Of a stretch of DNA of 64,000 nt, positions 6,385 to 48,704 are shown in pieces (the first letter of the stretch is position 1; every line of letters begins with the position of its first letter). Source of the DNA: Verrucomicrobiota bacterium (GTDB lineage Bacteria; Verrucomicrobiota; Verrucomicrobiia; Chthoniobacterales; Terrimicrobiaceae). Location: the NCBI GenBank assembly GCA_026398275.1, contig JAPLTF010000053.1:1-64000 (forward strand), read 5' to 3'. A program made the position numbers and the translations under genes. Below the pieces are notes generated by a model. It saw nothing but the letters and a program-made list of their open reading frames with translations. It did not search any database and was not told where the DNA came from.

Positions 6385-6660
6385 CCAAGCTTCGTCTTCA
6401 CGCTCGCCGCGACCGGCACCACGGGAAGAAAATGCTGAAACTGGAAATCTGAAAGCTGATTGAATTCATAATTCAGCATTCCCAATTCAAAATTGTATCG
6501 GTTCCGTGCGGTGTGGAATTCCTTGGTCGGCTTGAACACTGCTTTGGCACTCAGTGCGGCCCCGGCGTTGTGGCGGGCGAACAGGGCTTGGAGTTCGCCG
6601 ATGATCTCCTCGGCAGCGGCTTTCGGGATCAGGTCGCCCTTGATCTTGAGGCTGCATAAA
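6385..6660 (-). pseudogene. Broken accessory gene, copy B of the inverted pair
   Basis: The minus strand reads SLKIKGDLIPKA, then AEEIIGELQALFARHNAGAA, LSAKAVFKPTKEFHTARNRY, an AT-rich insertion, and VVPVAASVKTKLGR. This is clearly related to copy A at 3640-4000 but in opposite orientation and without copy A's frameshift. Its 5' end is cut off at the AbiE palindrome (6655-6685), so it has no start. The two copies bracket the anSME-HicBA segment. Confidence 0.5.
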
Positions 6661-6685
6661 TAGCGTAGATAATACGCTATTTATG
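6655..6685. promoter_or_regulatory. Perfect palindrome upstream of the AbiE pair
   Basis: Arms CATAAATAGCGTA (6655-6667) and TACGCTATTTATG (6673-6685) are perfectly complementary over 13 bp with a GATAA centre, 37 bp before the antitoxin start. AbiEi antitoxins are known to repress their own promoter by binding inverted repeats. The AT-rich palindrome stands out from the GC-rich surroundings and contains TA-rich hexamers that could serve as a -10 box. Confidence 0.6.
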
Positions 6686-21552: not shown

Positions 21553-23547
21553 ATGATCTGGGATTTTGACTGGCCGGTGGCGCTGATCGGGGGGTGCCTT
21601 GCGGTGGTGGTATTGGCGGTGGGGTGGGGATCTCCCATGAGAACCGCCGCGCGCGCGGCGGTTGCCGGCGCGACATTCGCCGCCTCGATCGTCTACCTGT
21701 GGTGGAGGATTTCGACCTACCCGTTTTTCTCCGATCTCCCTCCGGCCGACCGGATCGCCTCGCTGGTTTTTCTTGGATGCGAGGTGATCGTGTTCTTCGA
21801 ATACGGAATTTTTCTTCTGGGCATGGCCCGCCGCAGGGACAACAAGCCGTTTGCGGACAGGAAGGCGGCCGAGCTGCGGGCGATTCCCCCGGACGGGCTG
21901 CCGGAGGTCGATGTCTTTGTGACGACATACAACGAGGAGTGGAGGATCCTCTCCCGCACGATCCATGCGGTCAAAGCCCTCGACTACCCGAAAAAGAATA
22001 TCTGGATCCTCGACGACGGCCGGCGGGAGTGGCTCGCGGAAAAATGCCGCCTGCTCGGGGTCCGCTGCGTGCACCGTCCGGACAGCAGCCATAAAAAGGC
22101 TGGCAACCTCAACCACGGATTATCCGTGAGCTCCGCGCCATTCATCCTCAGCATCGATGCCGACTTCATCCCGTTCCCGCATTTTCTGTGGCGGGTGCTG
22201 GGGTTTTTCGAGGACCCGAAAGTGGGCGCGGTGCAGACCCCGCAATACAGCTACAACGTGGACCCGATGAGAAACACGCTCGGCCTCCAGCGCGGCGGCT
22301 TCGATGACCAGCTGATGTTCTACACGGAGATCCAGCCCTGCCGGGATGCCTGGAACGCCGCATTTTTCTGCGGGACGTCTGGCATCCTCCGTCGCGCGGC
22401 GCTCGAGGATATCGGCGGGTTTGTCACCGGCTGCGATGTCGAGGACCAGATCACCTCGATCGCGCTTTACTGCAAGGGCTGGGTCACCCGCTTTCTCGAT
22501 GAGGAGCTGAGCATGGGGCTGGCGCCCGAGTCGCTGGAAGCGTTCTTCCAGCAGCGCGTGCGCTGGTGCCGCGCCAGCCTGCAAATCCTCTTCACGCGCT
22601 ACGGGCCGTTTTCCCGGAACCGCCTCAACCCCGTACAGCGAATCCTGTTTTCGCAAAGTTTCTGGCTGCTCGGGCAGATCGGCCCGATCGCTTATGCGCT
22701 CGTCCCGGCCGCCGTGTGGTTCTTCGGTTTGGACATCGTTCCCAAAATGGATTCCAGGCAGATGTTCCTCGTTCCGCTGGTGATGTTTTGCACCGTGTCC
22801 CTGGCCACGAGCTGGCTTTGCGGGCGGAAATGGATCCCCGTGATCTCGGCCGGCATCGGGCTGTTCCAGGCGGTCTCGCTGCTCCCCACCGCCATCTTCA
22901 GCATCATCAAGCCGTTCGGGAAACCGCTTTTTTCCAAAGTCACGAGGGCCACACCCAAAGGGGCCGAGGCGAGGGGTGGCTCCCGGTTCTATTGGAAGAC
23001 ACTGCTCCCCCTGGCCACGCTCATGGCCGTCTCCATCATCGGAATCGCCACGAGCAACGTCGCACAAAACATGCTCCTCTCCGACCCGGATGTGATCGTG
23101 ACGGTCATCCTCTGGTCCGTCGTGAGTTTGACCACGATCGGGATCGCCATGTTTTGCTGCATCGAGCTTCCGTATGCCCGCGAGGAGGAGCGCTTTCTGA
23201 TCGACAGGCCATGCGTGGTGAGCGGCCCGGGAGGCGAAGAATCCCGGGGGGTTGCGGTCAATCTCTCAATGGTATCCGCGCTGGTGGATTCCTGCCAGCC
23301 TCCTCTGAGGGCAGGCGAAAAGGTCATGCTTCGTGTGCAGGGATTCCCGGATCTGCCCTGCACTGTCGAGCGGGATCTGCCCAATGGCGGGGCACTTCTC
23401 TCCTTCGAAAGCCTGGACATCGAAACCGAGGAGGAACTGGTCCAGACACTGCTGCTGAACCCCAAAGTGCTTCTGCCCCCGCTGACGCAGGTCCGGTATT
23501 TCCTCCCGGCTCTCATCCGCAGGTTGCTGACATCCTCCGGTTCCTGA
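21553..23547 (+). CDS. BcsA-like processive glycosyltransferase with PilZ-like C terminus
   Basis: 664 residues with about seven membrane helices. The family 2 catalytic core shows ILDDGRREW (DDG 154-156), SIDADFIPF (DAD 202-204), FFCGTSGILRR, a VED triplet (296-298, in place of TED) and QQRVRW (333-338). This is the D,D,D,QxxRW pattern of cellulose and alginate synthases. The last ~100 residues resemble a PilZ domain (VAVNLSMVSALV), but the c-di-GMP-binding RxxxR and final Gly of NxSxxG are not clear. Polymer identity cannot be told by eye. Start at 21553; longer frames run through the HlyD gene. Confidence 0.86.
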   Translation: MIWDFDWPVALIGGCLAVVVLAVGWGSPMRTAARAAVAGATFAASIVYLWWRISTYPFFSDLPPADRIASLVFLGCEVIVFFEYGIFLLGMARRRDNKPFADRKAAELRAIPPDGLPEVDVFVTTYNEEWRILSRTIHAVKALDYPKKNIWILDDGRREWLAEKCRLLGVRCVHRPDSSHKKAGNLNHGLSVSSAPFILSIDADFIPFPHFLWRVLGFFEDPKVGAVQTPQYSYNVDPMRNTLGLQRGGFDDQLMFYTEIQPCRDAWNAAFFCGTSGILRRAALEDIGGFVTGCDVEDQITSIALYCKGWVTRFLDEELSMGLAPESLEAFFQQRVRWCRASLQILFTRYGPFSRNRLNPVQRILFSQSFWLLGQIGPIAYALVPAAVWFFGLDIVPKMDSRQMFLVPLVMFCTVSLATSWLCGRKWIPVISAGIGLFQAVSLLPTAIFSIIKPFGKPLFSKVTRATPKGAEARGGSRFYWKTLLPLATLMAVSIIGIATSNVAQNMLLSDPDVIVTVILWSVVSLTTIGIAMFCCIELPYAREEERFLIDRPCVVSGPGGEESRGVAVNLSMVSALVDSCQPPLRAGEKVMLRVQGFPDLPCTVERDLPNGGALLSFESLDIETEEELVQTLLLNPKVLLPPLTQVRYFLPALIRRLLTSSGS

Positions 23548-40306: not shown

Positions 40307-42304
40307 ATGGCCCTCTCTCTCAACAAACCCAAGCTCGACAACCTCGCTTCCGACATCTGGAAATCCGCCGAGCGGCTGCGCGGGAAGTTCAAGTCCTACG
40401 AATATCAGAGCGTCATCCTGCCAATCATCGTCATTCGGCGGCTGGAATGCGTGTTGATTGCCTGGCGTGAAGAGAAGTCGGCCAAGGTGCTCGCTGGACG
40501 GCCGAAGCTCACGGAAAAGGAGCTCGCGAAGCTGGTCAAGGAACTGGAGCTGAATCCGAAGCAATGTCCTTTCTCGAACAAGACCGATTGGACGCTTCGC
40601 GCGGTCTATGAGGAAGACCACGCGCTGCTGGAGGAAAATTTCCGCGCCTACATCAACGGCTTCTCGAAGAACGTTGACGACATCATCGAGCATTTCAATT
40701 ACCGCGCCACCATCGGGCTGATGGTGAAGAACAACCGGCTCGCGCCGATCCTGAATCAATACAAGGAACTCGCGCTCGGCCCCGACCAGCTCTCCGGGCT
40801 GGAGATGGGCTACATCTACGAGGAGTTGCTCCGGCGCTTTTCGGAACAAAGCGGCGACGAAGCAGGGGAGCACTTCACGCCGCGCGAAGTCGTCCGCCTG
40901 ATGGTCGAGTTGCTGGACATACCCATCCCGGACAAGCATCTCTCGATCTACGATCCCGCCAGCGGCACGGGCGGCATGTTGTCGGTGACGAAGGAGCATC
41001 TGCTGGAACGCGCCGACACGCCGGAGGAAAAGGCGAGGGTGGAGAAATATGTCACCGTGCACGGGCAGGAACTTTCTCCCACGAACTACGCCGTTTGTCA
41101 GGCCGACCTCCTCATCAAGAACGACCGGCAGGCCACCGTCCACCTCGGCAACTCGCTCATTCCGCACGACAAGAACAGCAAGGAGCCGGGCGACCAATGG
41201 CCGGAGCCCAAATGGCACTTCAACCGGATGCTGAGCAACCCGCCCTTCGGCGTCACCTGGGGCGGCAAGGACGGCTACGAGAAGGAAGCGCGGAAGCTGG
41301 AGCTGACCCGCTACCGGGCCGGGATGCCGCGCGTGAATGACGGTGCACTGCTCTTTCTGCAAACCATGCTCGCCAAGATGGCCCCGCCGGAGGAAGGCGG
41401 CAGCCGCATCGCGATCATCTTCAACGGCTCGCCCCTCTCGAATGGCGACTGCGGCTCCGGTGAGAGCGAAATCCGCCGCTGGATTCTGGAAAACGACTGG
41501 CTCGACGCCATCGTCATGCTGCCCGACCAGCTTTTCTACAACACCGGCATCTTCACCTATGTCTGGCTGCTGCGGAATGACAAGCCCGCCAGCCATCGCG
41601 GTCGCGTGATGCTCATCGATGCCCGCCAGCAGTTTGAGAAAGAGCCGAAATCCTTCGGCAACAAACGCCACCGCATCACCGACGCGCATCGCGCGTGGAT
41701 CGAGGCGCGTTATACCAAGGGCTGGGCCAAGGGATACGCCGATGAGCAGGTCAAAATCTTCCCGAGCGAAGACTTCGCCTACCACAAGGTCAGCGTTGTC
41801 TTCTGGCAGACCGATGAACACGACCAGCCAGCCATTGTCACCGAGCCTTACGAGAAGGCATTCACTGCTGCGAACGTGAAGAAGGAGCAGGAGTTTCACG
41901 AGAGCGAACTGACTTTCAGGGCCTCGATCAAGACCGGCGGAAAAATGCAGACCGTGGAGCTGGTTCTCAAACCGCGCGATAATGCGACCAGAAAATTCAA
42001 GGATGCCTTCGGCGAAGCCGATGACATCCTCTCTGTGGAATGGACGCACCGGCACTACGTGCAGGACGACGAATACATCCCGCACGGCGAGGACATCGAG
42101 GCGTTCCTGAAACGGGAAATCGCCAAGCCGATCATCCGCTGGGAGGAAACCAAAAAGGACGGGAAGACAATCCTCGGTTACGAGATCCTGCCGAACAAAT
42201 ACTTCTACCGCTACCAGCCGCCCACACCCGCGAAGGACTTGCTGGCGGAGTTCTGGAAGCTGGAGAAGGAGGCGGAAAAGATGCTGGAGGGGTTGGCGAA
42301 ATGA
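40307..42304 (+). CDS. hsdM: Type I restriction-modification methyltransferase HsdM
   Basis: 665 residues. N-terminal HsdM_N helices (LASDIWKSAERLRGKFKSYE), then the SAM-binding motif YDPASGTGGML (about 214-224) and the catalytic NPPFG (about 311). Longer than many HsdM proteins because of a C-terminal extension with VLKPRDNATRKFKDAFGEAD. With HsdS it modifies adenine in the target. It opens the type I island after a 119-bp gap and overlaps the DUF1016 gene by 4 bp (ATGA). Confidence 0.92.
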   Translation: MALSLNKPKLDNLASDIWKSAERLRGKFKSYEYQSVILPIIVIRRLECVLIAWREEKSAKVLAGRPKLTEKELAKLVKELELNPKQCPFSNKTDWTLRAVYEEDHALLEENFRAYINGFSKNVDDIIEHFNYRATIGLMVKNNRLAPILNQYKELALGPDQLSGLEMGYIYEELLRRFSEQSGDEAGEHFTPREVVRLMVELLDIPIPDKHLSIYDPASGTGGMLSVTKEHLLERADTPEEKARVEKYVTVHGQELSPTNYAVCQADLLIKNDRQATVHLGNSLIPHDKNSKEPGDQWPEPKWHFNRMLSNPPFGVTWGGKDGYEKEARKLELTRYRAGMPRVNDGALLFLQTMLAKMAPPEEGGSRIAIIFNGSPLSNGDCGSGESEIRRWILENDWLDAIVMLPDQLFYNTGIFTYVWLLRNDKPASHRGRVMLIDARQQFEKEPKSFGNKRHRITDAHRAWIEARYTKGWAKGYADEQVKIFPSEDFAYHKVSVVFWQTDEHDQPAIVTEPYEKAFTAANVKKEQEFHESELTFRASIKTGGKMQTVELVLKPRDNATRKFKDAFGEADDILSVEWTHRHYVQDDEYIPHGEDIEAFLKREIAKPIIRWEETKKDGKTILGYEILPNKYFYRYQPPTPAKDLLAEFWKLEKEAEKMLEGLAK

Positions 42305-43494
42305 AGAAGACCACCGACACCGCGTTGACCATCACTGCCGACTACCGGCAGTTCATAGAAGAACTGAAGGCCCGCGTCGCCACCGCTCGTGTTTCCGCCG
42401 CCCGGAAAATCAACCATGAACTGATCCTGCTCTATTGGGACATCGGGAGAGGAATCGTGGAAAAGCAGCAGGCGCTTGGCTGGGGCGAGTCCGTAGTGGA
42501 AATGGTTGCCGCTGATCTGCGGCAGGCTTTCCCATCCATGAGCGGATTTTCCCCGCGCAATGTGTGGTATATGCGGCGTCTCTACGAAGCCTGTTCCGCC
42601 CCGGAATTTCTCGCACAGGTTGTGCGAGAAATGAGCAAACGGGGGGCAAATCCAATTCTGCCACAACCTGTGGCAGAATTAGAAAAAGCCATAATTTGGC
42701 CACAAGCTGTGGCCAAAATAGGAGGTGGCGTCGAACCGGGCCAATTTCTGCAGCAGCTTGTTGCAGAAATTCCCTGGGGACATCACCGCTTCATCCTCGA
42801 CAAGCTCACCGCCCCTGCCGCCCGCCTCTGGTATCTTCGCGCTACCGCCCGCTTCGGTTGGTCGCGCAATGTCCTGCTCAACCAGATCAAGGCCGGGGCT
42901 TACGAACGCGCCGTCACGGAAAAGAAGACCCACAACTTCGATCTCGCCCTGCCGGAGCATTTCGCGGAGCAGGCGGACGAGATGCTCAAAAGCTCTTACA
43001 ACCTGGAGTTCCTCGGCATCCGCCGCGCCGTGCGGGAGCGCGAACTCGAAGACCGGCTCATCTCGCGCCTGCAAGCCTTCCTCCTGGAGCTCGGCTACGG
43101 CTTTTGCTTCGTCGGGCGGCAGCACCGCCTTGCGCTGGGGAAGAAGGAGTATTTCATCGATCTGCTGTTCTATCACCGCTTCCTCAAGGCCCTCGTCGCC
43201 TTCGATCTCAAAGTCGGGCCTTTCGAGCCGGAGTTCGCGGGGAAAATGGATTTCTACCTGAATCTGCTCAACGACAAGGAGCGCGGCCCAGACGACCAAC
43301 CCTCCCTCGGCATCATCCTCTGCGCGGAAAAGGATGACGTGGAGGTGGAGTATGCCCTGCGCTCGAAGGCCAATCCCATCGGCGTCGCCGCCTATGAATT
43401 GCAGTCGAAACTGCCGGGCGAGTTGAAAGGGAAACTGCCGACGGCGAAACAGCTCGCGGATGTCGTGCGGGGGGAAATGGAGGCGGGGAAATGA
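42301..43494 (+). CDS. DUF1016/YhcG-family PD-(D/E)XK nuclease-like protein
   Basis: 397 residues. The N-terminal DUF1016 domain (INHELILLYWDIGRGIVEKQ, then GWGESVVEMVAADLRQAFPS and GFSPRNVWYMRRLYEAC) leads to a middle section made of four repeats of a 10-residue unit of the form [FI][LW]xQxVx[EK]. The conserved IPWGHHRFILDKL follows, then a C-terminal nuclease-type core with EYFIDLLFYHRFLKALVAFD and LKVG. YhcG-like proteins accompany type I restriction genes; the role is not settled. It sits between hsdM and hsdS with ATGA overlaps on both sides. The repeats are palindromic at DNA level. Confidence 0.85.
   Translation: MKKTTDTALTITADYRQFIEELKARVATARVSAARKINHELILLYWDIGRGIVEKQQALGWGESVVEMVAADLRQAFPSMSGFSPRNVWYMRRLYEACSAPEFLAQVVREMSKRGANPILPQPVAELEKAIIWPQAVAKIGGGVEPGQFLQQLVAEIPWGHHRFILDKLTAPAARLWYLRATARFGWSRNVLLNQIKAGAYERAVTEKKTHNFDLALPEHFAEQADEMLKSSYNLEFLGIRRAVRERELEDRLISRLQAFLLELGYGFCFVGRQHRLALGKKEYFIDLLFYHRFLKALVAFDLKVGPFEPEFAGKMDFYLNLLNDKERGPDDQPSLGIILCAEKDDVEVEYALRSKANPIGVAAYELQSKLPGELKGKLPTAKQLADVVRGEMEAGK
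42606..42771. repeat. Four in-frame palindromes within the DUF1016 gene
   Basis: Units lie at 42606-42632, 42654-42680, 42693-42719 and 42743-42771. Units 1 and 2 have perfect 12-bp arms with 3-base loops (ATTTCTCGCACA-GGT and AATTCTGCCACA-ACC plus complements). Unit 3 (AATTTGGCCACA-AGC) has one mismatch in its arms and unit 4 (ATTTCTGCAGCA-GCT) one G-T pair. All are in the same reading frame and encode FLAQVVREM, ILPQPVAEL, IWPQAVAKI and FLQQLVAEI. Between copies both arms change together, keeping the stems intact. Confidence 0.85.
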
Positions 43495-44930
43495 TCGCTG
43501 CCATTAAACCATCAAACGACCTCTGGCTCGACAAGATGCCACGCGACTGGCGGCGCAGCCGCATTCGCAACGTGGCTGCCTTGTCGCCGAACTACTCCCA
43601 GACACCGCCCGCATCCGATGAATCCTGCACGGTCGTGCCGATGGAGTTGCTTTCCAACGATGGCGCAATTGACGTGTCAAATCAGCAGCCGTTAGAGGAT
43701 ATTTCGACGGGCCTGCCCCTCTTTGAAAAGGGCGACGTTCTTTTCGCGAAGATCACTCCGTGCATGGAAAACGGCAAAGGGGCATTCGTGCGGCAACTGC
43801 CAACACGCTACGCCTTTGGAAGCACCGAATTTCATGTGCTTCGAGCGGGAAACAAGGTCGATGGGCAATTCCTGTATTACGCAACATTCAATCCCATTTA
43901 CCGAGCCTACGCAGCGGACAATATGGTCGGAGCGGCTGGTCAAAAGCGTGTATCATCGCGCTTTTTGAAGGACACGCGGCTGTTTCTCCCGCCGCTGCCG
44001 GAACAACAGCGCATCGCGGCGTATCTGGATGCGAGTTGCGCGGCGATTGACGCGGCGGTCGCCGCCAAACGCCGCCAACTCGAAACCCTTGACGCGCTAC
44101 GGAAGTCCATCATCCAACGTGCTGTCACACGAGGCATCACGGAAGGCGGCGCGCTTAAATCTACCGGCAACGCGTGGATGGACCAGCTTCCAACCGGATG
44201 GAAGCTCGTTTGCCTGAAACGAATTGCTGAAATTCAAGGCGGCCTCACGCTTGGCAAACAATACGATAGTCCGCTCATTGAGCGACCTTATCTTCGGGTC
44301 GGCAACGTCCAGGACGGTCACTTTGATTTGGATGAGGTTTCCGTGATCGAACTTCCAGCCAATGTCGCACCGGGTGTGGAGCTTCGTCCCGGCGACGTGC
44401 TAATGACTGAAGGCGGTGACCTCGATAAGTTGGGGCGAGGCCATGTTTGGAACGGGGAGATTCCAGGCTGTCTGCATCAGAACCACATCTTCGCGGTGCG
44501 CTGCTTCCTTCACAAATTGAAGCCAATGTTCCTCGCGTATGTCACTGCAGCCAAGTATGGGCGTGACTATTTTGAGGCGACGGGAAAGAAGACAACAAAC
44601 CTCGCCTGCACGAATGCAACCAAGGTAGGCGAGTTTCCAATCCCATTGCCGCCCCTGTCAGAGCAAGAGGCAATCTGCGTATATCTTGAAAAGAAACTTG
44701 GTGACGTAAAGGCCATCGTCGCCTCCATCGAAACCCAAATCGCCACCCTCACCGCCTACCGCAAATCACTGATCCACGAATGTGTCACCGGCCAGCGGCG
44801 GGTCACGGAGGCGGATTCGACAGGCTCACCGCAGGCGGACGTGGCGCGCATCGAGTTGTCCGAAAAGGCCGGACAACGGAACCGTCCAAAAAAATCGGAC
44901 AGTTGGAGAGGGAGCTATCATGAGCACTAA
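43491..44930 (+). CDS. hsdS: Type I specificity subunit HsdS
   Basis: 479 residues with two target-recognition domains, each ending in a conserved PLPPxxEQ-type spacer helix: LPPLPEQQRIAAYLDASCAA and LPPLSEQEAICVYLEKKLGD, followed by TLDALRKSIIQRAVTRGI and TLTAYRKSLIHECVTGQ. This is the usual architecture that sets a bipartite recognition site. ATGA overlap with the DUF1016 gene. The last 40 residues are Arg/Ser-rich and overlap the next gene's start. Confidence 0.92.
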   Translation: MIAAIKPSNDLWLDKMPRDWRRSRIRNVAALSPNYSQTPPASDESCTVVPMELLSNDGAIDVSNQQPLEDISTGLPLFEKGDVLFAKITPCMENGKGAFVRQLPTRYAFGSTEFHVLRAGNKVDGQFLYYATFNPIYRAYAADNMVGAAGQKRVSSRFLKDTRLFLPPLPEQQRIAAYLDASCAAIDAAVAAKRRQLETLDALRKSIIQRAVTRGITEGGALKSTGNAWMDQLPTGWKLVCLKRIAEIQGGLTLGKQYDSPLIERPYLRVGNVQDGHFDLDEVSVIELPANVAPGVELRPGDVLMTEGGDLDKLGRGHVWNGEIPGCLHQNHIFAVRCFLHKLKPMFLAYVTAAKYGRDYFEATGKKTTNLACTNATKVGEFPIPLPPLSEQEAICVYLEKKLGDVKAIVASIETQIATLTAYRKSLIHECVTGQRRVTEADSTGSPQADVARIELSEKAGQRNRPKKSDSWRGSYHEH

Positions 44931-45780
44931 CAAAGACAGCAAACTGGCCGTGTTTGAAGGAAAGCGCATCCGGAAAACTCTTCATAAAGGCACTTGGTGG
45001 TTTGTCATCGTGGATGTGGTCGCCATCCTCACTGATTCCGCCAATCCCGCCGGTTACCTCAAGGATATGCGTCGGCGCGACCCCTCCTTGGCCGAGGCTT
45101 TCAAAGGGGGGGGGCAATTTGCCCCCCCCCTTGCTTTGGAGTTTGCGACGGCTGGCGGACCCCAAAAGCTCCAGTGCTGGAACACCGAGGGCCTTTTCCG
45201 CCTGATCCAATCCATCCCCAGCCCGAAGGCGGAACCCTTCAAGCGATGGCTGGCCCGCGTCGGCAAGGAGCGGATTGATGAGATCGAAAACCCCGAGCTG
45301 GCCATGGCCCGGATGCAGGCTCTCTATGAAAAGAAAGGCTATCCCAAGGAATGGATCGACAAGCGGCTGCGGGGCATCGCGGTCCGGCAGGACTTGACCG
45401 ACGAATGGCAGAACCGGGGTGCCCGAACCACGTTGGAATACGCCATTCTCACCAATGAGATCATGCAGGGAACCTTTGGCCTGAACGTGGAGGACTACAA
45501 ACAAGTGAAAGCCCTGACGCGGGAAAATCTCCGCGATCACATGACCGATATCGAGCTGATCCTCACCATGCTGGCCGAGGCCACCACCACGAAGCTCCAT
45601 CGGGATCGCGATTCGCAAGGCATGACGCCGCTGAAAAAGGATGCTCATGACGGCGGGGCGGTGGCGGGCAGAACGCGAAAAGATATCGAGGCCCAGACCG
45701 ACCAGCCCGTCATCTCCGCCGAAAACTTCAAGCAACTATCCGCCAGGAAACCGAAAAGACTGAAGGCGAAGGAAGGCTGA
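44920..45780 (+). CDS. BRO-N domain, phage antirepressor-like protein
   Basis: 286 residues. The N-terminal BRO domain (LAVFEGKRIRKTLHKGTWWF, then VIVDVVAILTDSANPAGYLK, CWNTEGLFRLIQSIPSPKAE and FKRWLARVG) is followed by a charged helical tail (IAVRQDLTDEWQNRGARTTL). Members of this variant are found inside type I restriction loci, perhaps controlling restriction; mechanism is unknown. The start overlaps hsdS by 11 bp. A G9...C9 palindrome inside the BRO domain can shift the frame by slippage. Confidence 0.82.
   Translation: MSTNKDSKLAVFEGKRIRKTLHKGTWWFVIVDVVAILTDSANPAGYLKDMRRRDPSLAEAFKGGGQFAPPLALEFATAGGPQKLQCWNTEGLFRLIQSIPSPKAEPFKRWLARVGKERIDEIENPELAMARMQALYEKKGYPKEWIDKRLRGIAVRQDLTDEWQNRGARTTLEYAILTNEIMQGTFGLNVEDYKQVKALTRENLRDHMTDIELILTMLAEATTTKLHRDRDSQGMTPLKKDAHDGGAVAGRTRKDIEAQTDQPVISAENFKQLSARKPKRLKAKEG
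45104..45132. repeat. G9/C9 palindromic homopolymer tract in the BRO-N gene
   Basis: Nine G's (45106-45114) and nine C's (45122-45130) flank CAATTTG, giving arms of about 14 bp around a one-base loop (AAGGGGGGGGGCAA and its complement). It encodes KGGGQFAPPL. Long G or C runs are classic slippage sites, so the BRO-N reading frame may be phase variable. The tract may also be hard to sequence accurately. Confidence 0.75.
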
Positions 45781-45782
45781 CC

Positions 45783-48704
45783 ATGCCCAAAAAGAAAAAG
45801 CCTCCCGAGCTGACGTTCCAGCAGCACATCGCGGATTTCCTCATCCGTGAGCACAAGTATGGGAAGTTGGAGCAGGCCGACATTACGGACACCGAGCACT
45901 TCATCGCCGAAGACCAGCTCTGGGCCTTCCTGAAAGCCACGCAGGCGGACACGCTGAAAAAGCTGGAGGACGATTACGGAACAGACGCGCGGGAGGAAGT
46001 CTTCAAGGCCCTGCGCAAGGAAATGGAACATACGCCGCTGTGGATGCTGTTCCGGCAGGGGTTGCCGGTTCGCGGGTTGGAGTTCCGGCTCTTTTATCCC
46101 AAGCCGCGCTCCGCTGCGAGTGCCTCCGCCGCCAAGTATGCGCAGAACCGCATCACCTTCCGTCCGCATTTCTACTTCGGTGATGCGAACCAAGAAATCG
46201 ATTTTGTCATTTACCTCAACGGACTGCCCATCGTTGCGCTGGAGCTGAAACACGAGGCCAACCAGAACGTACATGACGCCGTGGCGCAGTTCGCCGGGCG
46301 CGACCACACGCATAAGATTTTCCAGCATCCCTTCCTCTACCTCGCCGCCGACACCACCGACGCGATGGCCGCCACTGACCCTCGCAAGGAGGAGAATTTC
46401 CGCTGGCACAACATGGGGCTGACGAACACGCCCACCAACGCCGACGAGTATCCGGTCGAGTTCCTTTACCGCGAAGTCCTGTCGCAGGAGCAATTGCTTG
46501 AGGCGTTGTCATTCTTCCTCGTCCGCGTGCCGGAACGTGAGGCGGAGGACGACAAGCCCGCTCGCCCGGCCTCGACCATATTCCCGCGCTATCACCAGAG
46601 CCGCCTGGTGCGGCGGGTGGCGGAGGACATCACGGTCCACTTCGCCGAGGCGGGCGACATCGGCAAAAAGTATCTGGCCGACCATTCCGCCGGCAGTGGC
46701 AAGACGCTCTCCATCTGCTGGCTTGCCGACCGGCTGCACAGTCTCTTCAAACCCGGCACAAACGAGAAGCTGGTCGATATCACCTTTATCCTCACGGACC
46801 GCAAATCGCTCGATACGAACATTCGCGAGGACATCGAGAAGTTTACACACCTAAAAAACGTGGTGGGCATCGCGAAGAAGGCCGACGATCTGCCGCGTTT
46901 CCTCAAACAGCGAAAATCCATCATCGTCACGACGCAGCAGAAATTCGCCTGGGTGCTGGAGGAGATTAAGAAAAACCCGGAGTTGAAGAAGCTGCGGGTG
47001 GCGTTCCTGATCGATGAGGCCCACCGGTCGCAGGAAGGACACATGGGCGCGGCCATCCGACTGCCGTTCCGCAAGGAAGGCGAGCCGGACGAGGAAGCCC
47101 CCGAAGAGGATCTTGAAGAGCAGATTGCCAAAGTCATTCGCGAGCACGATCTGAATCAGTTGTTCGTCGCCTTCACCGCGACACCGGCACCGGTCACCGT
47201 GTCGATGTTTGGCAAGCCGTTCGACACCTACACCGAGGCGGAAGCCATCGCCGAGGGCTACATCGTGGACGTGGCAGCGAGCATCATCTCCTACAAGACG
47301 CTCTACAACCTTCATTGTCCCATCGTCCCGAAACCGGACGAGGAGAAGGTCTATCCCAAGGGGGTCGTGTCCAAGGCGCTCCAGAATGTGGCGTTTCAGG
47401 ATGATGGATTGATTCAATACAAGGCCGAGGTGATGCTCCGCATCTTCGAGAAGGATGTGAAGCCGCTCATCGGCGGACGCGCCAAGGCGATGATCGTCAC
47501 CTCGTCTCGCGTGGCCGGCCTGCGGTATTTCAATATCATCAAGGAGAAGCTCAAGGAGCGGGGGGCTGACTACAAGGTGCTCTACGCGTTCTCGGATTTC
47601 GTCCACCCGGAGACGAATGCAGCCATCAGTGAGTATGCCGTAAATGAATTGCAACAGGGAGAGTTGATCGAGAACCGCTTCGAAGGCGACGACTACCGGA
47701 TCATGGTCGTTGCGAACAAATTTCAGACCGGCTTCGACCAGCCCTTGCTCGCGGGCATGTTCCTCGACAAGCCGGTGCTGGACCGCAACGCGGTGCAGAC
47801 CGTCTCGCGCCTGAACCGTTGCCACCACGGCAAGAAGGATGTCGTGGTCGTGGACTTCACCAACAACGCCAAGCAAATCCTGAAAGCCTTCGCAAAGTAT
47901 CGGAAGGGCACACCATTTGAACCGGAGGAGCCTGACAAAGAAACCTGCCCGAAACTGCACGCGGAGATTTTGGCTGCGGGAGTGTTCGCCCAAAAAGACG
48001 CCACCGACCTGCTGAAGCTGATCAAGGCCGGGACGGACGCACAGGTGCAATTCCAAGTGAACGCCCTGCGGGGGCGCTTTCTGACTAAGATCACCGATTG
48101 GGAAGATCGCAAGGCGTTCGTGTATCTGCTGGCCCGCTTCGTGAAGAGCTTCCATTTCCTGACATGCTTCTTCACCTACCCGCCAGCGATTCAGGAGTTC
48201 GCCAGTTTCGCCGAATGCGTCGGTCCGCAACTCATCAAGGCCGGAACGGTTTCCGATCTCATGAAGCAAATTCGCGCCACTATCGTCACCAAGGCGGCGG
48301 TGAAATACGAAGGGGTGATGACCAGCGGCGGTCCCGTAAAACTCCAGCCGGGCAAAGGAAAAGGCGGCGCAGGCCCGGTGCCGGTGAAGGTGTCCGTGCA
48401 GGACGTGATCGCGCAGATTCGTGCCAAGTTCGACATCACGGACGAAGAGGCACTCTACATCAAACAGGTGACGGAAGAGAAGATCGCCGACCCGGCCATC
48501 CGCTCCACGGTCCAGGCGCACCGGGAGGACGCGCTTTATCTCGAAGGCCCGTATCGCGGGCAGGTAAACGAGGACATCCAGACGACCTACGACGAGCGTG
48601 GTCGCTTCGACGAACTTGCCGACCCAAAATACACCGACACCGGCGGCATCTTCGACATCATGGCCGTGACCGTCATCCAAACTCAGCTGTCTTTTGCCGC
48701 CTGA
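45783..48704 (+). CDS. hsdR: Type I restriction subunit HsdR
   Basis: 973 residues. The N-terminal nuclease core is EIDFVIYLNGLPIVALELKH (D...ELK, about 140-158). The motor follows with Walker A HSAGSGKTLSI (about 300), IIVTTQQKF, LIDEAHRSQEG (DEAH, about 411), FTATPAP, and helicase motifs near GFDQPLLAGMFLDKPVLDRN and VSRLNRC. HsdR cuts unmodified DNA after translocation. It is 2 bp after the BRO-N gene, completing the operon. The length fits EcoR124-type HsdR. Confidence 0.94.
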   Translation: MPKKKKPPELTFQQHIADFLIREHKYGKLEQADITDTEHFIAEDQLWAFLKATQADTLKKLEDDYGTDAREEVFKALRKEMEHTPLWMLFRQGLPVRGLEFRLFYPKPRSAASASAAKYAQNRITFRPHFYFGDANQEIDFVIYLNGLPIVALELKHEANQNVHDAVAQFAGRDHTHKIFQHPFLYLAADTTDAMAATDPRKEENFRWHNMGLTNTPTNADEYPVEFLYREVLSQEQLLEALSFFLVRVPEREAEDDKPARPASTIFPRYHQSRLVRRVAEDITVHFAEAGDIGKKYLADHSAGSGKTLSICWLADRLHSLFKPGTNEKLVDITFILTDRKSLDTNIREDIEKFTHLKNVVGIAKKADDLPRFLKQRKSIIVTTQQKFAWVLEEIKKNPELKKLRVAFLIDEAHRSQEGHMGAAIRLPFRKEGEPDEEAPEEDLEEQIAKVIREHDLNQLFVAFTATPAPVTVSMFGKPFDTYTEAEAIAEGYIVDVAASIISYKTLYNLHCPIVPKPDEEKVYPKGVVSKALQNVAFQDDGLIQYKAEVMLRIFEKDVKPLIGGRAKAMIVTSSRVAGLRYFNIIKEKLKERGADYKVLYAFSDFVHPETNAAISEYAVNELQQGELIENRFEGDDYRIMVVANKFQTGFDQPLLAGMFLDKPVLDRNAVQTVSRLNRCHHGKKDVVVVDFTNNAKQILKAFAKYRKGTPFEPEEPDKETCPKLHAEILAAGVFAQKDATDLLKLIKAGTDAQVQFQVNALRGRFLTKITDWEDRKAFVYLLARFVKSFHFLTCFFTYPPAIQEFASFAECVGPQLIKAGTVSDLMKQIRATIVTKAAVKYEGVMTSGGPVKLQPGKGKGGAGPVPVKVSVQDVIAQIRAKFDITDEEALYIKQVTEEKIADPAIRSTVQAHREDALYLEGPYRGQVNEDIQTTYDERGRFDELADPKYTDTGGIFDIMAVTVIQTQLSFAA

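Follow-up and report, generated by a model that had tools for sequence, protein, structure and literature searches.

Rickettsia palindromic elements (RPEs) are in-frame palindromes within protein-coding genes (PMC4316617). They are ~100–150 nt long, are found in many genes and at intergenic sites, and their repeat identity is lost over time (PMC6649704). Coding palindromes of nematomorph (Nematomorpha) mitochondria are perfect inverted repeats in which codon phase 1 is favoured, and whose arms are actively kept identical (PMC6649704). However, these palindromes are long, reaching 284 bp, and scattered without a fixed site, and they come and go between species. REP elements have an associated gene, that of the RAYT transposases. 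They are short palindromes of 20–40 bp with a conserved base (PMC3733652), but are extragenic, present in high copy number, and tagged by GTAG or CGTC at the base of the stem. Finally, template-switch (quasipalindrome) mutation is a process that homogenises the arms and inverts the spacers of palindromes in yeast genes (PMC8604942), and that makes and maintains hairpins (PMC8794818); it is general, with no specificity for a site or a gene family. The palindromic units described here, found in genes of the DUF1016/YhcG family, differ from RPEs in being 27 bp long, in occupying one fixed site per family, and in having arms that are matched across phyla. They differ from REP elements in being intragenic and of low copy number, with A/T-rich ends (AWTT in the tabulated units) in place of the tags. 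No published description of palindromes in DUF1016, Bro-N, ORF6N or RhuM genes was found in the open-access literature; for DUF1016, this agrees with the initial annotation of the locus, whose author knew of no such array in that family.

The window, a 64,000-nucleotide stretch of a Verrucomicrobiota contig, contains a type I restriction-modification operon in which hsdM (positions 40307–42304), the DUF1016 gene (42301–43494), hsdS (43491–44930), a Bro-N gene (44917–45780), and hsdR (45783–48704), all recognised by Pfam, follow each other on the forward strand. The 397-aa DUF1016/YhcG product consists of a DUF1016_N domain (residues 21–112) and a YhcG_C PD-(D/E)XK nuclease domain (residues 227–380). 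It matches PF17761 (E = 2.3e-38) and PF06250 (E = 5.9e-59) above the cut-offs, and also matches PADLOC PDC-S02 (1.2e-132), a phage-defence candidate.

Four palindromes with 3-base loops had been reported in one frame of this gene, at 42606–42771, and all four were confirmed. Unit 1 (42606–42632; palindromes are given without strand) reads ATTTCTCGCACA-GGT-TGTGCGAGAAAT; unit 2 (42654–42680) reads AATTCTGCCACA-ACC-TGTGGCAGAATT, its loop being the reverse complement of the unit 1 loop; unit 3 (42693–42719, called at 42695–42717) reads AATTTGGCCACA-AGC-TGTGGCCAAAAT; and the basal unit 4 (42744–42770, called at 42743–42771) reads ATTTCTGCAGCA-GCT-TGTTGCAGAAAT. The encoded peptides are, respectively, EFLAQVVRE, PILPQPVAE, IIWPQAVAK, and QFLQQLVAE. 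In the frame that starts at 42301, every one of the four centres occupies codon position 1. The centre of the basal unit (42757) is located exactly 18 nt 5′ of the codon of Trp159 (42775–42777, forward strand), an invariant alignment column within the PWGHH motif that serves as a positional anchor of the element family-wide. At six arm positions (k = 5, 6, 7, 8, 9, and 12, counted from the centre), the copies between them use at least two Watson–Crick pair types, where at least five positions with matching changes in the opposite arm had been claimed. The array contains two mismatches, a single one toward the outer end of unit 3 (k = 12) and one in unit 4 (k = 4). As single-stranded DNA, the array region folds with a z of −7.9. 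The array of an ortholog whose protein is 84% identical (locus L095) carries compensatory changes relative to the window in units 1, 2, and 3. In unit 1, for example, a G-C pair is changed to T-A (left arm, CTCGCACA to CTCTCACA; right arm, TGCGAG to TGAGAG), and in unit 2, CTGCCACA/TGTGGCAG is changed to CTGCGACA/TGTCGCAG, the left change replacing Pro with Arg and the right one being synonymous.

When the window gene was synonymously recoded in 3000 trials and palindromes with arms of at least 9 were counted, there were none in 2963 trials, one in 36, two in 1, and never four. Permutation of codons within the gene had a close outcome. A random-codon model, which the initial annotation had set against its own claim, thus fails to yield such arrays. 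These tests, together with the synonymous shuffles of linkers described below, rule out chance or codon bias as the source of the palindromes. Two further palindromes were noticed elsewhere in the window, at 6655–6685 (CATAAATAGCGTAGATAATACGCTATTTATG) and 21642–21663 (AACCGCCGCGCGCGCGGCGGTT).

While the array in the window is real, its description as a local feature of one gene proved too narrow, since the element is present nearly family-wide and three other families have equivalents. Usable DUF1016 genes numbered 182; their sources were relatives, phylum-mates, viral contigs, E. coli, and 80 named contigs of genomes from many phyla. When viral sequences were scanned with the E. coli protein, nothing was matched. 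At least one palindrome with 10 or more of 12 pairs was present in the interdomain linker in 162 of the 182 genes, which come from many phyla and include E. coli yhcG. The number of units, whose counting across the family had been proposed earlier, ranges from one to five; many genes have two to five, the window gene four, and E. coli K-12 yhcG three. Homologues lacking complementary arms, a possible objection raised by the initial annotation, form a minority, as fewer than 10 of 12 pairs were found in 20 of the 182 genes. Since about one in nine DUF1016 genes no longer has a good palindrome, the element is not strictly required.

In the linkers, taken from the end of the N-domain to the conserved Trp (23.8 kb), 244 centres reach 10 or more of 12 pairs, while synonymous shuffles predict 6.6. 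Outside the linker, the same genes, at eight times that length (189 kb), contain 39 such centres, a 50-fold lower density. Almost all linker centres (237 of 244) are odd palindromes on codon position 1, a phase that has been described as the easiest for coding palindromes (PMC6649704). Genes with the shortest linker (19 aa, 81 genes) have a single unit with a mean pairing of 10.4 out of 12, the centre of which is located exactly 18 nt 5′ of the Trp codon. The unit lies directly 5′ of the PWGHH/SWSHY motif and is composed of 13-bp arms around a single central base, with the innermost 3 nt unpaired; between the A/T-rich ends, the middle is variable yet complementary, and the centre is mostly R-S-Y. 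Paralogues from the same genome, as well as relatives, have different palindromes at the same place, and most of the paralogues retrieved later, outside the initial sample, also carry one. Arm similarity is 0.685 within a gene versus 0.474 between genes. We are practically certain that a 27-bp in-frame palindrome at a fixed place is a near-universal trait of DUF1016/YhcG genes. The linker shows no sign of being a domain-shuffling joint, for the N2–C1 distance correlation (0.718) is no lower than that of N1–N2 (0.662).

Because the earlier units had been picked for being palindromic, covariation was retested, without ASCERTAINMENT, at alignment-fixed positions. In the 78 distinct sequences used, the position of the unit was set solely by the protein alignment. 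Paired cells amounted to 88.2%, compared to 69.6 ± 0.9 after shuffling; two-sided changes numbered 147 (43.0 ± 4.8 after shuffling), and the covariation score was 0.468 (0.141 ± 0.012 after shuffling). In a control in which the partner was slid by 1–3 bases, pairing fell to 33–39%. When thinning left 18 divergent sequences, pairing was 0.78 versus 0.51 ± 0.03 in shuffled sequences. The third base of the +9 codon is A in 98.7% of cases, with 47% expected, and in 35 of 35 GC-rich genes, with 33% expected. Wobble bases track the opposite arm rather than codon usage. Third codon positions in one arm are opposite second positions in the other, so that conservation of the protein could not produce this pattern by itself. 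The wobble bias at +9/−12 was also considered as sequence-specific conservation, but this idea was dropped, as such bases have to pair with position 2 in the other arm, which explains the bias. The view that DNA, and not protein, accounts for the covarying arms is borne out.

The Bro-N gene of the same operon belongs to a second family that has a fixed-site coding palindrome of its own, located in the window at 45104–45132 (AAGGGGGGGGGCA-ATT-TGCCCCCCCCCTT; as a whole, AAGGGGGGGGGCAATTTGCCCCCCCCCTT), which codes for KGGGQFAPPL. Among 30 Bro-N homologues (loci L237–L266), 29 have a palindrome with at least 9 of 12 pairs at the aligned site, where 3.4 were expected; the arms differ between homologues, and two codon phases are used. 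In ORF6N, RhuM, and HsdM, the last serving as a negative control, alignment columns were scanned for palindromes without preselecting a site. Fixed-site palindromes with variable complementary arms were found in ORF6N (loci L267–L296; mean 10.6 out of 12) and RhuM (loci L297–L326; mean 10.8 out of 12). No fixed-site palindrome was found in the HsdM scan, where the best score, 6.07, equalled the shuffle maximum. Compared to column shuffles, pairing was 0.896 versus 0.530 in RhuM, 0.875 versus 0.595 in ORF6N, and 0.872 versus 0.542 in Bro-N, the last figure being somewhat favourable because units were re-centred per gene. The RhuM and part of the Bro-N palindromes use codon phases other than that of DUF1016. 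Among the 11 ORF clusters with at least six members at the sampled loci, clear fixed-site palindromes were seen only in DUF1016 (and ORFs antisense to it), Bro-N, ORF6N, and RhuM, while the HsdS, HsdM, and HsdR clusters paired no better than shuffles. The E. coli nanQ genes (8.2 versus 7.4), a small cluster with nearly identical members, are not independent evidence.

The fixed-site covarying coding palindromes that Bro-N, ORF6N, and RhuM genes have of their own are new here. The element is position-fixed, sequence-free, and DNA-symmetric, and in four families it lies inside the reading frame. Genes of DUF1016 and of these three unrelated accessory families appear to contain a DNA signal that has gone unrecognised. 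Hsd genes were present in the short flanks of 31 out of 135 loci in the case of DUF1016; for the other three families, the counts were 3 of 26, 2 of 23, and 6 of 27. Since most of the sampled loci have no Hsd gene in their short flanks, control of type I restriction-modification operons was rejected as a general function and is not the common factor. The common factor that we can see is that the products act on or bind DNA (uncertain in the case of RhuM). Bro-N and ORF6N are DNA-binding domains of phage regulators.

As for DUF1016 itself, the PD-(D/E)XK motif, of the D...[ED]-x-K type, is present in 176 of 182 family members. YhcG was previously predicted to be a PD-(D/E)XK nuclease, with YraN-like Holliday-junction resolvases as its nearest relatives (PMC1189080). 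In a structure model that draws on 44 relatives (pLDDT 75.7 on average), the extra units encode a low-confidence linker (121–134, <50), and the last unit encodes a more confident helix. The best matches of the model among solved structures are a Pyrococcus repair endonuclease (2vld) and EndoMS (5gke), with E of about 1e-4. Given the resolvase kinship and the matches of the predicted fold to repair endonucleases, a four-way junction or a hairpin, the latter suggested as a target in the initial annotation, would be a plausible DUF1016 substrate.

Palindromic units are also found outside the reading frame. A noncoding copy is located 27 nt past the yhcG stop codon in E. coli, and another lies just 3′ of the DUF1016 gene in Lachnospira, with arms akin to those of the gene's internal unit. 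At one locus (L191, 2440–2900), a noncoding stretch between a DUF1016 gene and hsdS, 3′ of the former and behind an N-terminal fragment of DUF1016, holds eight consecutive palindromes of the DUF1016 type, whose arms covary. In Calothrix (contig 6; L235, 3450–3720), a DUF1016 remnant retains two perfect palindromes. In E. coli strain a7, which has IS1 in place of yhcG, a similar palindrome is located 27 nt past the gltD stop codon (L053, 593).

E. coli yhcG alleles contain three units or, through a 78-bp in-frame deletion, one; other alleles have frameshifted 80-bp deletions or a differing array within an otherwise similar gene. In 5,426 E. coli genomes, the common allele of the 3′ noncoding copy was matched at ≥99% in 2,823, an allele with an inverted loop in 391, and an allele combining the inverted loop with a two-arm C/G exchange in 237. 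Two one-arm intermediates (ACT loop only) had no match at ≥99% in these 5,426 genomes. Concerted arm change and loop inversion, which define a template-switch hotspot, are thus both seen in the 3′ copy. Template switching or inter-unit conversion would be expected to leave such an allele pattern.

The explanation that we favour, though tentatively and at somewhat less than even chances, is that the palindrome is a selected cis-acting DNA site that the gene's own product most likely recognises. We infer selection at the DNA level, since template switching by itself would not explain why the element is specific to certain sites and families. Recognition by the encoded protein is suggested with less confidence. 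Selection would keep the palindrome as a symmetric or hairpin-forming site, and the protein may recognise it in its own gene, for example to autoregulate or to hold a DNA-acting protein in check. Template switching or inter-unit conversion, which would also invert the loop and alter the number of units, could copy a point mutation from one arm to the other because the palindrome is in frame. Since Bro-N and ORF6N are DNA-binding domains of regulators, self-recognition is preferred over a property of nucleases only; on the other hand, palindromes are intact in a pseudogene and in noncoding arrays, which would be equally compatible with mutation alone. That at least four unrelated accessory families, DUF1016, Bro-N, ORF6N, and RhuM, independently carry a palindrome, fixed in place but free in sequence, because each protein recognises the structure in its own gene is conceivable, but the odds are against it. 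Selection for a hairpin and repair by template switching had been offered as alternatives in the initial annotation. The evidence fits both acting together: family and site specificity argues for function, and loop inversion and the missing intermediates argue for template-switch or conversion events.

A purely mutational origin, with template switching at replication hairpins repairing, loop-inverting, and duplicating a functionless palindrome whose peptide is tolerated, is unlikely in our estimation. It agrees with the closure of the loop triplets under reverse complement, with the E. coli alleles, with the arms that remain paired in noncoding and pseudogene copies, and with the published behaviour of template switching, which accounts for the dynamics of the units but not for their location. 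One fixed site across phyla, in genes whose remainder has 50-fold fewer palindromes, would be left unexplained, as would the presence of palindromes in three other families and their absence from HsdM, HsdS, and HsdR.

A special case of the favoured cis-acting site would be an intragenic operator, at which a homodimer binds the duplex sequence-specifically and acts as a roadblock repressor, arm variation reflecting diverging specificity. The phage-regulator domains of Bro-N and ORF6N, the conserved core and variable symmetric arms of the single palindrome of each family, and the greater likeness of arms within a gene would all be in line with such an operator. We nonetheless find it doubtful: arm perfection over 10–13 bp is beyond that of usual operators, and multi-unit DUF1016 genes carry unlike arms under one protein, which argues against simple sequence-specific operator binding.

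An mRNA hairpin, causing translational pausing at the domain boundary, stabilising RNA, or serving as an RNA target of the protein, is improbable, and the RNA option of the initial annotation is disfavoured accordingly by the mismatches. The site does lie at the boundary between the N-domain and the nuclease domain, and the fold is strong (with DNA parameters). However, G-T mismatches in DUF1016 do not exceed A-C mismatches (24 versus 22 in last units, 46 versus 63 in upstream units); as G-U is not favoured over A-C, selection on an RNA stem is unlikely. The corresponding counts, all small numbers, are 6 versus 0 in RhuM, leaning toward G-T, 6 versus 6 in ORF6N, and 10 versus 5 in Bro-N. An Rfam search gave no match above threshold, the sole hit, RNA-OUT, scoring 24.6 against a gathering threshold of 41 bits, and noncoding copies occur outside the reading frame. 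Moreover, the set of central triplets is nearly closed under reverse complement, which implies that both strands are treated alike.

A mobile palindromic element, similar to REP or Rickettsia elements, that homes to these genes, with a transposase or the nuclease as the agent of its spread, could account for the variable unit number and for the extra copies 3′ of E. coli yhcG and of the Lachnospira gene, but is just as improbable, since dispersed copies are nearly absent from 13 genomes, target duplication was not seen, and the basal unit, at the same codon across phyla, appears inherited rather than newly inserted. In pattern scans of these genomes (the window's own and 12 others), matches with complementary arms were located at DUF1016 genes, their remnants or flanks, with one exception, which rules out a genome-wide repeat family; neither the dispersal across unrelated genes and intergenic regions typical of RPEs nor the many extragenic copies typical of REP/RAYT systems were seen. 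The exception, a lone intergenic stand-alone unit with ~22-bp arms in Hymenobacter artigasi (L234, ~3132), would suit a mobile element; no DUF1016 gene was seen nearby.

DUF1016 is a widespread nuclease family of unknown function and a phage-defence candidate. The DNA structure embedded in nearly all of its genes is a pointer to what the nuclease acts on or how it is controlled, and makes the family directly accessible to experiment. If the palindrome is indeed a site recognised by the encoded protein, it would represent a new class of self-addressed DNA element, in which the coding sequence doubles as the cis-site of the protein. Its recurrence in Bro-N, ORF6N, and RhuM suggests an overlooked general principle, whereby DNA-acting genes associated with mobile elements or defence bear an internal recognition site. 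The units also provide a natural system for observing template-switch mutation inside protein-coding sequence.
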